64,000 nucleotides of DNA from positions 620,001 through 684,000 of the forward strand of contig NZ_OZ026470.1 in NCBI RefSeq assembly GCF_964019925.1. Direction: 5' to 3'. Under the pieces are notes generated by a model. The model was not told the DNA's origin and searched no databases. It saw nothing but the letters and a program-made list of their open reading frames with translations. Position 1 is the stretch's first letter. Each line of letters starts with the position of its first letter. Shown here piece by piece: positions 19,591 through 27,303 of this stretch. Position numbers and translations under genes: made by a program. The DNA is from Spiroplasma endosymbiont of Cantharis nigra (GTDB taxonomy: Bacteria; Bacillota_I; Bacilli_A; Mycoplasmatales; Mycoplasmataceae).

Positions 19591-20511
19591 TTAAAGATTT
19601 GATCTGATATATTCAATAATTTCATTAGATATGTCTTCAAAATTTTTATAATCATGTTCAAATCATTTAACGTTATTTAATTGATTTTTGAATCAAGTTA
19701 ACTGCCTTCTTGCATAATGCCTATTATTTTGTTGCATCAGTTCGATACATTTTTCATAATCTATTTCTTTTTCAAAATATTTTATGATTTCTGGACCTCC
19801 AATACATTTTAAAGATTGGGCTTTTTTGTCAAAATTATTAGCCTTATAAGCCAATTGTATTTCTTCAAACAAACCCTTTTCTATTAAGCTAAGTACCCTA
19901 TTGTTTATTTTACTATATAATTCCTCTCTTTTGGCAGATATTCCAATAATTAATAAATTATTATAAAGATACTTTTTATTGTCCTTTGTTAGTTTAGTTT
20001 TTGTTATTCCTGTTAGTTGAATAAGTTCCAAAGCTCTAATTAATCTATATCTATTATTCATATGAATTTTTTTGGCCTCTAAACTATCTTTTAAATTTAA
20101 AACTTCTCAAATCTCTTGATTTGATTTTGTATCATATTTTTTTGCATAATTATCAATATGATCATCACTGCTAAAGTTATAATCCATTAAAACCGAATTA
20201 ATATAAAGTCCTGTTCCACCAATAAGTATAGGAGTTTTTTCATTCTCCAATACTTTTGCAATTTTTTCTCTTGCATGCTTTTGAAATTCTGCTACTGAGT
20301 AGCTTTCATTAACTTCTTTTATAGAAAGTAAATGATGTTTAATCCCTTGCATTTCTTGAGTTGTTATTTTATTTGTTGCTATATCTGTTCCTTTAAAAAT
20401 TTGAGTAGAGTCTGCATTAATACATTCTCCATTAAATTCCTTTGCAATTTTAATTGATAGGTCTGTTTTCCCACTTGCTGTTGGTCCAACTATAACTATT
20501 ATTTTATTCAT
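19591..20511 (-). CDS. miaA: tRNA dimethylallyltransferase MiaA
   Basis: A 306-residue enzyme that adds a dimethylallyl group to A37 of tRNAs reading UNN codons. P-loop VGPTASGKTDLSIKIA (about 8-23), catalytic INADSTQIFKG, PILIGGTGLYINSVLMDY and the tRNA-binding RYRLIRALE and QNNRHYARRQLTWFKNQ motifs are all present. Length equals the family. The upstream 150 bases hold a structured RNA candidate. Confidence 0.95.
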
Positions 20512-20539
20512 AATTATTACTACCTTTCAAAAATTGACA

Positions 20540-20659
20540 AAAAAAAATATTCCCACCCGCTATCAAATGCATGAGAAAGGAAATACTTATTTATTGAGCG
20601 GTCTTTAATATCTCACGCAAACATAAAGAATAACAAATATTCTTGGCGTCCCTAAGGAC
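20540..20659 (-). ncRNA. Candidate structured RNA (about 120 nt) or miaA leader
   Basis: A minus-strand TATAAT (20666-20671) would start a transcript at about 20659, and a nine-base T run ends it at 20539-20547. In between the RNA can form a 5' hairpin GUCC-UUAG-GGAC, a 7-bp hairpin AAGAAUA/UAUUCUU, and an 8-bp stem GCGUGAGA/UCUCAUGC. A loop element CCGCU inside that stem can pair with AGCGG downstream, giving a pseudoknot directly before the U run. The segment is clearly GC-richer than other intergenic DNA here. No SD-linked reading frame is seen. It could be an independent small RNA (mollicutes have an abundant ~125-nt RNA called MCS4, similarity untested) or a regulatory leader of miaA. 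Confidence 0.5.
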
Positions 20660-20665
20660 ATAATA

Positions 20666-20671
20666 ATTATA
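20666..20671 (-). promoter_or_regulatory. Promoter -10 box of the small RNA/miaA
   Basis: TATAAT on the minus strand, seven bases before the presumed 5' end of the structured RNA and directly after the terminator of the preceding gene. Confidence 0.55.
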
Positions 20672-20672
20672 T

Positions 20673-20708
20673 AATAAAAAAACCTTACATAAATAAGGTT
20701 TTTTTATT
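20673..20708 (-). terminator. Intrinsic terminator after the Lys/Ala-rich protein gene
   Basis: AATAAAAAAACCTTA and TAAGGTTTTTTTATT form a perfect 15-bp stem around a 6-base loop; it includes part of the stop codon of the upstream gene. Confidence 0.85.
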
Positions 20709-21384
20709 ATTTTTTTGTTACTGCTGATCTAATTTTAATGTTTACTTTTCTTGGTTCAACTATTGAAGGTTGGAATAAAACAGTTTTTCTTGTTTTTCCT
20801 AGTTGATTACCAGCAATTTTTACTTCTTTTTTCTGATTAAAAAGACCTGAAATATCTCTTCCACCAGTAACTACAGCTACTCAATTTTCGTCTAATTTAC
20901 GTTTAACTTTTGCATTTAATCAATGTAAAGCAACAACGTTATTTACATCATCTCTTTCACCATCTTGATCAATTAAACAATAAACTCAACCGAATTCTGA
21001 TGCTTGTCCATATTCGCTAACTTTAATAATTGCTCCAGCTATATCTTGTCTATAAATAGATGAATTTGTTGCTGAAACTGGATCTGATTTCTCTCAAATA
21101 AATTTTTGTTGTCCATCAGTTAATTTGATGTCTTTATTTATAATTTTCTCTGGTTTTGGATCTGAAACTTTTTTTCTTGTTTGAATATGTTCAGGTCTCA
21201 TTTTATTTGAAGCAGCTCTTTTAACAGCTGTTGTTTTAGGTTTTTTTGCAGTTGTGCTTTTTGCAATTAATGATTTAGTAGTTGATTTTTTAGCAGTTGT
21301 TGATTTTTTTACTGCTACTTTTTTAGCACTTGTTGCTTTTTTAGCACTTGTACTTTTTCCTGTTGTTGATTTTGCAGTTGCCAT
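20707..21384 (-). CDS. Protein with Lys/Ala/Thr-rich (histone H1-like) N-terminal tail
   Basis: A 225-residue protein. The first ~62 residues are almost only Lys, Ala, Thr and Ser in K-S-T-T-A-K-K type repeats, like histone H1 or bacterial H1-like tails. A middle linker (MRPEHIQTRKKVSDPKPEKI) leads to a ~120-residue folded domain (IYRQDIAGAIIKVSEYGQ... WVYCLIDQDGERDD... WVAVVTGGRDISG) with a basic beta-rich end. I do not recognise the domain. A nucleic-acid-binding role is inference from the tail only. Gene start ATG 21384 (ACGGTG upstream); a 17-bp perfect palindrome lies 33 bases before it. Confidence 0.7.
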
Positions 21385-24330: not shown

Positions 24331-27303
24331 CTATCCTTTAATTTTTCTATACTCAGGTTTTGGATTTTTTAATGAACTTGTTCAATCCCCTGCAAAGGCT
24401 CTAGCAAAGTCATATTCTTCTAAATAAGCTAAACCATGAGTTAATAAACTTTTATTTATTGGTTTATTCGTATGCACATCTAAACCTCTATCATCATTCA
24501 TTGATCACATTCCAATATATCCTAAACCAACATTATGGCTTCAATTATACAATTCTTTTGCATCTTCTTCAGTAAAAACACCTCAAACTGTATCATTAAC
24601 ACCAATCATTGGTGTTGCACCAATTAATTTATAAAGACCATCATTACCAATTGAAACTTTTCCATAATTACTTTCAATTGAAGTTGCTAAGTTATTTTTT
24701 GTAGCATTTACTGCTTGTCTTGCTAAATCAAAGTTAGTTAATCCATCTTTAATTGCCTGTACATAAATTGGATCACCATAATCCATTAACATTAAGTTAA
24801 CAACTGGTAAATCTTTTTCACTTAATCCAGCTTTTTTAAATTCCTCAACAAATATATTCATTACACGATAACCAACAGAAGTTAAACCAGTTGGCAATAC
24901 TGGTAAAGTTAATGAGAAATCTCAATCCTTATCTTCTTTTTTCATTTCAGCAATTGTTGCTGCCAATAATCTATTATCATCATCTAATTCTTGAGCATGT
25001 CCCTCAATATCAAAGTCAATTGCTTTTGGCATTTTAACGTTTTTACCTTTTTTATAAGCTAATTTTACCAATGATTCTTGATATCCAATTAAAGTTTCTT
25101 TAAGGTCATTTTTTGCTTTTTGAGAATTATTAGGATTTAATTTATTTGCTAAAGTTCAAGGATTTTTTTCTGTAAATCCTCCTGTAGTTGCTCCACCATA
25201 AGCTACTTTAATATTTTCAAATTTATTTTGTTCTGCCATAGGTTTTAAAATCTTTTCTCAGAATTGACTGCTTTCTCATCATTCATAACCTTCAGTACCT
25301 GTTTCACTACCTGCAATTGACAAGTCTAATTTATCTCCATGATTATTAACTTGTTGTACAAATGCTAGTGTTAAGTGATCCATTCCATTAACACTGGAAA
25401 TAATATTTTTCATATTATTTCCTTCATATAACCCAGCATCTAAATAAGGTGAGAAATATGTTGATTTATTTGCTTTTGCTTTTTTAGTAATTGAAGATTT
25501 TCTATTTGGATTTGCTTCACTTCATTTTGTATAAAGACTCTTACCTTGTCCAGTTGGAGGCATAATTACTTCTCCACCACCAGTTCCTGCTCCAGGTCCA
25601 GGGTTTGTTCCCCCTCCACCTTCTCATGAAGGTCCTTCTCAATTACCAGGGTTTTCTAAATTGTCTAATGCTTTATTTGCTTGAATATCATTTTTATAAT
25701 CAATAGCCTTTAATTGACTAATAACTTCATCTTTATCTGTAATTTCCTTTGGAATATCATTTTCTAATAAAGTTCCATTTAATGCTTCTGCATATGTAAA
25801 TTGTTTGAAACCTGAACCAGATCTAATGTTTTGATCTAATGCATTTTGGTCAGCTTGAGCTGCACCTGTTAATCCATTATCTTGAAAATGACTTGGTACA
25901 TCTCTTGAGATATAGAACATTCCTAAACCACCAAATCCCTCTTTAACAGCTCAAGTTCTTAATTGGACTGCATCTTTTGGAGTAAAGTTATAAGCAGCAG
26001 CTTCAGCTCTTCTTCCAATTCAAGGAGTGATTTTAATTCTTTTTTTCATGTAACTTAGATATTTTATATCATCATTTGCCACTTCATTTATTTTCGCTCA
26101 GTTTTTAGCTGTTTGTTCAGCTCCATCTTGAATTTGTTTTAATTCTCAATCATCATTAGTATTAACATCATTGGGTACAGTCAAATAACCTGTAACTAAA
26201 TTTAATCTAAAATTAATACCCAAATATTTTGTAAAGTTATACAAAGGATAAATTTCATCACCTAATAAATTTAAATTATTAAGTCCCTCTTGACCAAATC
26301 CCTCAGCTAATGCAACTCCATATTCTGTTGACATTACAAGTGATAATTGGAAATCATAAGTTGGATCACTTTCAATTAATATTTTTAAAGCACTGGCTAG
26401 TAATTTTTGAGAATCAGCATAATCTCCTCTAGCTGATAAATATGGTGCTGCAAAATAGAAATCAAATTTTTTAGTGCTATATTTATCCCCAACTGCTTTA
26501 ATAACTTCTGCTAATTCTTCAGGAGTCTTATTATTTTGTCATGCAGTATGTCATAAAGAATTGGCAAAAGGTCCAAATGAAATTCTTACATTTTCTGGAT
26601 TTAAATGTCCGCCATTTTCGTGACTTGTTATTTTAGTTTTAGAACTTTTTTTTGTTCAATCTCTATATCTATCATTAAATCATTTAGCATATTCAGTTTC
26701 TTCACCTTCTTTAGCTAAAATACCTTGTCCATCACCTTTTGCAGGCCCAGCATTTCACATTGGAACTAAATCACCAGTATCTGCTGCATTTTGCATAAAT
26801 CCTAATGTTACTTCTGAATTTTGTGTAATAACATTTTCTTTACCAGCTATTTCACCTAAGTCATTATAAATGATATTTTTTCCATTTAAACTTTTTTCTG
26901 CTTCATCTCTTGTACCTTGACTTTTTCCTTTATCTTTCATCAAGTATTCTGCTGTATCTTCAACAATTCCCATATCTGCATAAGGTGAAAATACAAACTC
27001 ACCATCATTAACTGCTAATTTTTCAACACCTGCTAAAGAAGATCTTTCTCCTTCTTTAATAACTCCATAATTTGAACTATTTTTATTTGTATTTTTTGTT
27101 AATAAGTCTTTTGATATTTGCTTTTTAACACTATTTTCTTTTATACTATTAATTTCACTATTTATGTTTCCATTACCTTTTCATTGTTCACCTGTTTGAA
27201 ATGTTTTGTCTTTTGCATCAATTACTTTTCCACAAGCTACAACTGAACCACCAGCAGATACAACTAAACTTGTACTTGCTAATAAATTTAATAATTTTTT
27301 CAT
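24331..27303 (-). CDS. Chitinase-like GH18 lipoprotein, copy 1
   Basis: A 990-residue surface lipoprotein (lipobox SVVAC, Cys about 24). The C-terminal half is a GH18 barrel: FSPYLDAGLYEG, HLTLAFVQQ, VAYGGATTGGF, and the catalytic D-x-D-x-E as AIDFDIEGHA with Glu about 767. The N-terminal half has the same landmarks (FSPYADMGIVED, VTLGFMQNAADTG, FDFYFAAPYLSARGDY) but lacks the catalytic Glu, so it appears to be an inactive or binding barrel. A Gly/Pro-rich linker (GGGGTNPGPGAGTGGG) joins them. GH18 enzymes cut beta-1,4-GlcNAc polymers; the obvious substrate for an arthropod-associated spiroplasma would be chitin, which is inference. AAGGGTAAAA precedes ATG 27303. Confidence 0.75.

Follow-up and report, generated by a model that had tools for sequence, protein, structure and literature searches.

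What does the short interval upstream of miaA encode in the genome of the Spiroplasma endosymbiont of Cantharis nigra, and does it belong to miaA? The window, i.e. the whole stretch of 64,000 nucleotides that was analysed (positions 620,001 to 684,000 of contig NZ_OZ026470.1), comes from a genome of 1,237,520 bases in which TGA is read through within genes. From this sequence, the original prediction had proposed a structured RNA of about 120 nt with a TATAAT box, three hairpins, a CCGCU/AGCGG pseudoknot and a nine-base U tail. The box, the U tail and the location between two genes (the 20707-21384 gene and miaA) were all found as described, on the minus strand. The predicted 5′ end of the RNA is at 20659 and its predicted 3′ end lies inside the U run, at about 20540. 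Two of the three hairpins hold; they are the 5′ hairpins P1 and P2. The third is the long-range helix a, which encloses 36 nt, and a further helix, c, had been missed. The pseudoknot is present as helix b, one of three helices that cross each other. The features are listed below.

Features of the RNA locus and its neighbours. Positions are those of the window; R1 and R2 are covariance models, A3 is a MAFFT alignment.
Feature	Position	Strand	Evidence
Structured RNA of about 120 nt, probably stand-alone	20540..20659	-	R1/R2 match, model positions 1-120; 41 loci compared
-10 box TATAAT, 6 bases before the RNA	20666..20671	-	conserved spacing across loci
5′ hairpin P1, GUCC-UUAG-GGAC, tetraloop	20648..20659	-	fold -6.1 kcal/mol; loop types
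Hairpin P2, AAGAAUA-UUUGU-UAUUCUU	20626..20644	-	87.1% of cells paired in alignment A3
Helix a, 5′ strand UGCGUGAG	20612..20619	-	alignment A3 and 41-locus pair counts
Helix a, 3′ strand CUCAUGCA	20568..20575	-	alignment A3 and 41-locus pair counts
Helix b, 5′ strand CCGCU (predicted pseudoknot)	20597..20601	-	41-locus pair counts
Helix b, 3′ strand AGCGG	20557..20561	-	41-locus pair counts
Helix c, 5′ strand AGUAUUUCC	20579..20587	-	alignment A3 and 41-locus pair counts
Helix c, 3′ strand GGGAAUAUU; in the window clade also a likely terminator arm	20546..20554	-	41-locus pair counts; T run
A/U-rich linker b-c CAAUAAAUA	20588..20596	-	9 nt in 40/41 loci
Nine-U run, likely intrinsic terminator tail	20539..20547	-	sequence; scan of loci
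miaA (tRNA dimethylallyltransferase), downstream neighbour	19591..20511	-	PF01715 IPPT, E=1.8e-71
Protein of unknown family, lysine/serine/threonine-rich start resembling histone H1 tails	20707-21384	-	

The RNA is conserved among the relatives of this organism. A blastn search with a 146-base query, run on 99 related genomes, hit 25 of them, including all 20 of the same genus; a short second match in G008 (23 bases, L026) was rejected. Covariance models were built from 23 loci (R1) and from 40 aligned loci (R2). With a cut-off of E≤0.1, R1 matched 41 of the 60 genomes in the family, one of which (G032) was then rejected, and added the genus containing S. poulsonii and S. phoeniceum. R2 matched 40 of the 60 family genomes as well as G283, from another family of the same order. 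At E≤0.01, R2 matched 42 of 320 genomes, the 42nd being G133. This match (E 0.0072) was rejected as chance, since it lacks a -10 box combined with the order of the helices, and the same holds for a second R1 match in G001 (E 0.029); both G032 matches were inspected and also lack this combination. The class sample contained 18 matching genomes out of 395, all within the family, and the phylum sample 36 out of 392, i.e. 35 in the family plus G133. No credible match was found beyond the family and G283 in the order, class and phylum samples, where searches spanning more than 40 genomes used stricter filters and weak matches can be lost. Weak hits of the RNA model in G032, G046, G038, G043 and G031 (E 0.05-0.9) were rejected as chance, and a second R1 match in G048 covers 44 positions. 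A pattern scan of named genomes returned 18 stretches, three of them in Spiroplasma (one in S. poulsonii, two in S. phoeniceum); the remaining 15 were judged chance, the pattern being loose.

Each genome carries a single locus, with the exception of one duplication in G040. In this genome both the RNA and miaA occur twice, at loci separated by about 11 kb (L068, 650400-652400; L069, 661600-663600); at one of the loci miaA is broken into two pieces, and the adjoining RNA departs slightly from its counterpart. Plasmids and phages gave no match to the RNA, and a mobile element was rejected on this ground. A small protein encoded inside the RNA was also rejected, because the length changes by 1-2 nt among loci and a possible ATG is lost in several of them.

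The secondary structure was examined in 41 loci, namely the 40 aligned loci and that of G283, the G009 locus being left out. The strands of helices a, b and c were placed by motif in each locus and pairs were counted in the 36 distinct sequences. Paired cells make up 100% of the 288 in helix a (8 bp), 99% of the 180 in helix b (5 bp) and 99% of the 324 in helix c (9 bp); four, one and six pairs respectively are changed on both sides. When a strand is slid by 1-4 bases, pairing is at most 63% (a), 74% (b) and 60% (c). As pairing was used in placing the strands, these percentages lean towards the structure, and the MAFFT-only alignment A3 provides a fairer test. In this alignment (20 distinct rows) 92.3% of the cells are paired, compared to at most 54.4% after sliding. 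Moreover, 11 pairs are changed on both sides, compared to 4.9 in shuffles (0/500), which ignore relatedness. One position of helix c is U-A, A-U or C-G depending on the locus, and where the window has UGCGUGAG/CUCAUGCA as helix a, the citri-type clade has GUGUUUGGG/CCCAAGCAC.

Pairing of the predicted pseudoknot is kept in relatives, its covariation being sparse: helix b is nearly invariant, with one compensatory pair in one sequence (G025). Its outer pair is A-U, C-G or A.G among loci, and G054 and G283 have one mismatch each. Covariation therefore speaks weakly for helix b. As far as sequence comparison goes, all three helices persist in the 41 loci, helices a and c through compensatory changes, so that the structured RNA put forward at the outset reflects more than a chance fold. 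G-U cells outnumber A-C cells by 84 to 3 in the 36 distinct sequences, which identifies the minus strand as the RNA. Single-sequence thermodynamics was unremarkable (z -1.34, with 20 of 200 shuffles folding as well; second estimate z -2.06) and was set aside as not significant.

Putative signals for transcription accompany the structure. In 26 of the 41 loci the -10 hexamer reads TATAAT and in 13 TAAAAT, at an identical distance from the RNA, and it is shifted by 1-2 bases in the other two; no -35 element is conserved across the 41 loci. The loop of P1 is of the GNRA type in 22 of 41 loci and UUCG in 11, as would be expected if a stable 5′ hairpin were under selection. At the 3′ end, all 25 window-type loci have at least five T directly after helix c. 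A separate hairpin with a T run follows within 110 bases in all 16 remaining loci, namely the 15 of citri type and G283; five T directly after the RNA are also present in four of these citri-type loci and in G283. The same scan found weaker A/T-rich hairpins downstream of some window-type loci. RNA polymerase would thus start six bases past the TATAAT box and would stop at the U run in the window clade, or at the separate downstream hairpin terminator in citri-type loci, and the two 5′ hairpins would probably protect the end of the transcript. On the other side of the promoter, a hairpin with an A run on one side and a T run on the other occupies 20672-20706, in the gap that separates the RNA from the upstream gene. 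It is likely a terminator directly abutting the -10 box.

No known family accounts for this RNA. In Rfam 15, the only match at or above gathering threshold in the 64-kb window is a tRNA, so that the covariance search proposed with the original prediction named no family for the locus. At a permissive threshold 12 weak matches appeared, none of them credible. The best sub-threshold match, STnc370, lies on the plus strand over the neighbouring A/T-rich hairpin, and the 20672-20706 hairpin explains it. The suggestion of a new RNA is borne out in that no Rfam family reaches gathering score, the structure is conserved and covarying, and the -10 box is conserved; no description was found in the open-licence literature, subscription literature being mostly outside the search. 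The RNA resembles 6S RNA in having its own putative promoter and terminator, a single copy, a conserved fold and a lineage-wide distribution. However, it is knotted whereas 6S RNA is a long hairpin with a bubble, and the 6S model RF00013 matched none of 9 genomes at E≤0.1, the E. coli and B. subtilis controls being positive.

The order of the strands is a-b-c-a′-b′-c′. Each helix thus crosses the other two, an ABCABC "pseudotrefoil" of three supported helices, among which b has weak support from covariation. In the topology counts of a survey of RNA STRAND, ABCABC occurs in 51 sequences compared to 1688 for simple ABAB (PMC3390330), and "triple knot" is a name used for the topology (PMC4885603). 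The RNA shares its three-helix crossing order with this class (genus-1 pseudoknot class 1C), which is a shape class, not a family, and no ancestry is claimed. Linker c-a′ is 3 nt in 41 of 41 loci, a length that in window-type loci depends on our placement of helix c. Linker b-c has 9 nt in every one of these loci but G058, where it has 13; b′-c′ measures 1-2 nt, a′-b′ 4-7 nt and a-b 7-10 nt across the 41 loci. Given these near-fixed c-a′ and b-c linkers and an arrangement that can be drawn without clash, helices a, b and c would form simultaneously, as one compact knotted fold. Helix c would stack end to end on a through the short c-a′ linker, b would sit alongside a, and the 9-nt A/U linker would run along the c/a stack. 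We infer this arrangement from strand order and linker lengths.

The best explanation is a stand-alone Spiroplasma ncRNA gene with two 5′ hairpins and a three-helix core, which would act in trans; we put its probability at roughly two in three. The main alternative is a cis-acting leader of miaA, in which helix c would terminate transcription and read-through would be tuned by the a/b pseudoknot, either by itself or together with a ligand, as in an orphan riboswitch or attenuator. Like attenuating leaders and pseudoknotted riboswitches, the RNA is structured, precedes a gene and, in the window clade, ends in a 3′ terminator. miaA is directly downstream in most loci, and its occurrence follows that of the RNA: 39 of the 60 family genomes have both, 20 have neither and one, G025, has the RNA only. 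This co-occurrence may, however, reflect one loss in one clade, since the 20 genomes without both come from six genera all lacking both. In the window, the start codon of miaA at 20511 lies 28 nt from the RNA end, and promoter-like matches in this gap are not in excess (3 compared to 2.2 in shuffles), so that miaA may depend on read-through in the window clade. Counted against a stand-alone gene as well is the fact that window-type loci are mostly right upstream of miaA, often without room for another promoter. Yet a leader should always be directly upstream of the gene it regulates, and three genomes retain the RNA without adjacent miaA. Thymidylate synthase is downstream of the RNA in G054, with miaA about 47 kb away; the RNA of G283 precedes an unrelated gene, with miaA on a different contig; and in G025, where miaA was not detected (assembly 85% complete, 80 contigs), tRNA-Gly is downstream. 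The spatial link between the RNA and miaA is therefore breakable, and the RNA also occurs with no such gene alongside, unlike known leaders. Helix c meets the U run in the window clade, which counts for a leader, and the citri-type clade keeps it despite its separate terminator downstream, which counts against one. Nor do a/b and c share sequence that would make them exclusive, and there is one RNA copy per genome. A leader is thus unlikely to us, and the proposed sensing of tRNA modification is weakened by the unlinked loci and the citri-type terminator; read-through into miaA is possible in the window's own clade. A stand-alone gene fits better with the fixed -10 spacing, the single locus per genome, the citri-type terminator and the three miaA-unlinked genomes, and miaA is probably not part of the RNA gene. 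In G025, the 6131-base contig L083 lacks miaA and an rpiR-like gene between the RNA and tRNA-Gly, and the flanking neighbours on both sides are in the window's order.

The stand-alone reading leaves the fold itself to be weighed. The three helices could be alternative pairings of a switching RNA, an idea to which their mutual crossing and the different arrangement in the window's nested minimum-energy fold lend some weight. Their strands do not overlap, however, so exclusion is not forced, and linker lengths are nearly fixed. Moreover, the helix energies (a -10.3, b -6.6, c -6.8, P1 -6.1, P2 -4.3) sum to about -34 before loop costs, compared to -27.6 for the nested fold. Switching is accordingly a rather improbable account of the core. 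Far less credible is the proposal that the RNA is the Spiroplasma counterpart of MCS4 of Mycoplasma capricolum, an abundant, U6-like small RNA of mollicutes whose length, about 125 nt, is similar. The U6 model RF00026 gave no match in 20480-20720 at E up to 10, and no match above cut-off in any of 14 genomes, seven sub-cut-off matches being judged chance on inspection; the MCS4 idea is left unsupported by this comparison, which was made through the U6 model. The RNA model likewise found nothing convincing in the 20 RNA-less family genomes, which may or may not include M. capricolum. In the passages of an RNA-seq report on S. diminutum and S. taiwanense that name highly expressed ncRNAs, only tmRNA and rnpB appear (PMC5726471). 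A 120-nt RNA is easily missed with the fragmented TruSeq library and 100-nt contig minimum of that report, which is therefore weak evidence against a stand-alone RNA. We regard the family, absent from Rfam and with a rare knotted core, as real, and most likely it is a separate gene whose product acts in trans. Conservation mostly concerns the paired shape and one short A/U linker, which points to a folded body rather than an antisense RNA. That this body would act in trans, bound by a protein or a small ligand, is the least certain step of the proposal.

The upstream gene offers a lead for such a partner. No Pfam family matched its product, which has a weak histone-H1-like match below cut-off, and the AlphaFold model is too poor to use (mean pLDDT 42.2). 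Among the 60 family genomes the protein was detected in 37, each of which also bears the RNA, and in none of the 20 RNA-less ones; no match was obtained in the RNA-bearing G053, G059 and G054. A relative adjoins the RNA in G283. The gene is often, not always, adjacent to the RNA, lying about 118 kb off in G027. The association is confounded by descent, and the protein is at this stage a candidate suggested by co-occurrence. Elsewhere on the minus strand, at 24331-27303, the ORF list contains a 990-aa large lipoprotein-like ORF whose two halves look alike; it is possibly a glycosyl hydrolase.

We tentatively suggest that the locus represents a new stand-alone Spiroplasma RNA family with a true, simultaneous pseudotrefoil, forming the core of an unknown ribonucleoprotein or a ligand-binding RNA. 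Surveys encounter this topology rarely, and the core would be an example of it that comparison supports. Most folding programs are unable to predict this topology, so that such RNAs may go unlisted. As a compact object the RNA would also suit structural studies, and deleting its gene would be simple. If the suggestion is correct, a pseudotrefoil RNA would work in cells where no 6S RNA was found, and the neighbouring lysine-rich protein of unknown family would be one candidate partner. As the knot is kept while the letters change, it is probably the shape that has a function. The genomes of spiroplasmas, which are much studied as insect symbionts, male-killers and plant pathogens, are small, and an RNA gene retained in nearly every lineage searched should serve a worthwhile role in them.
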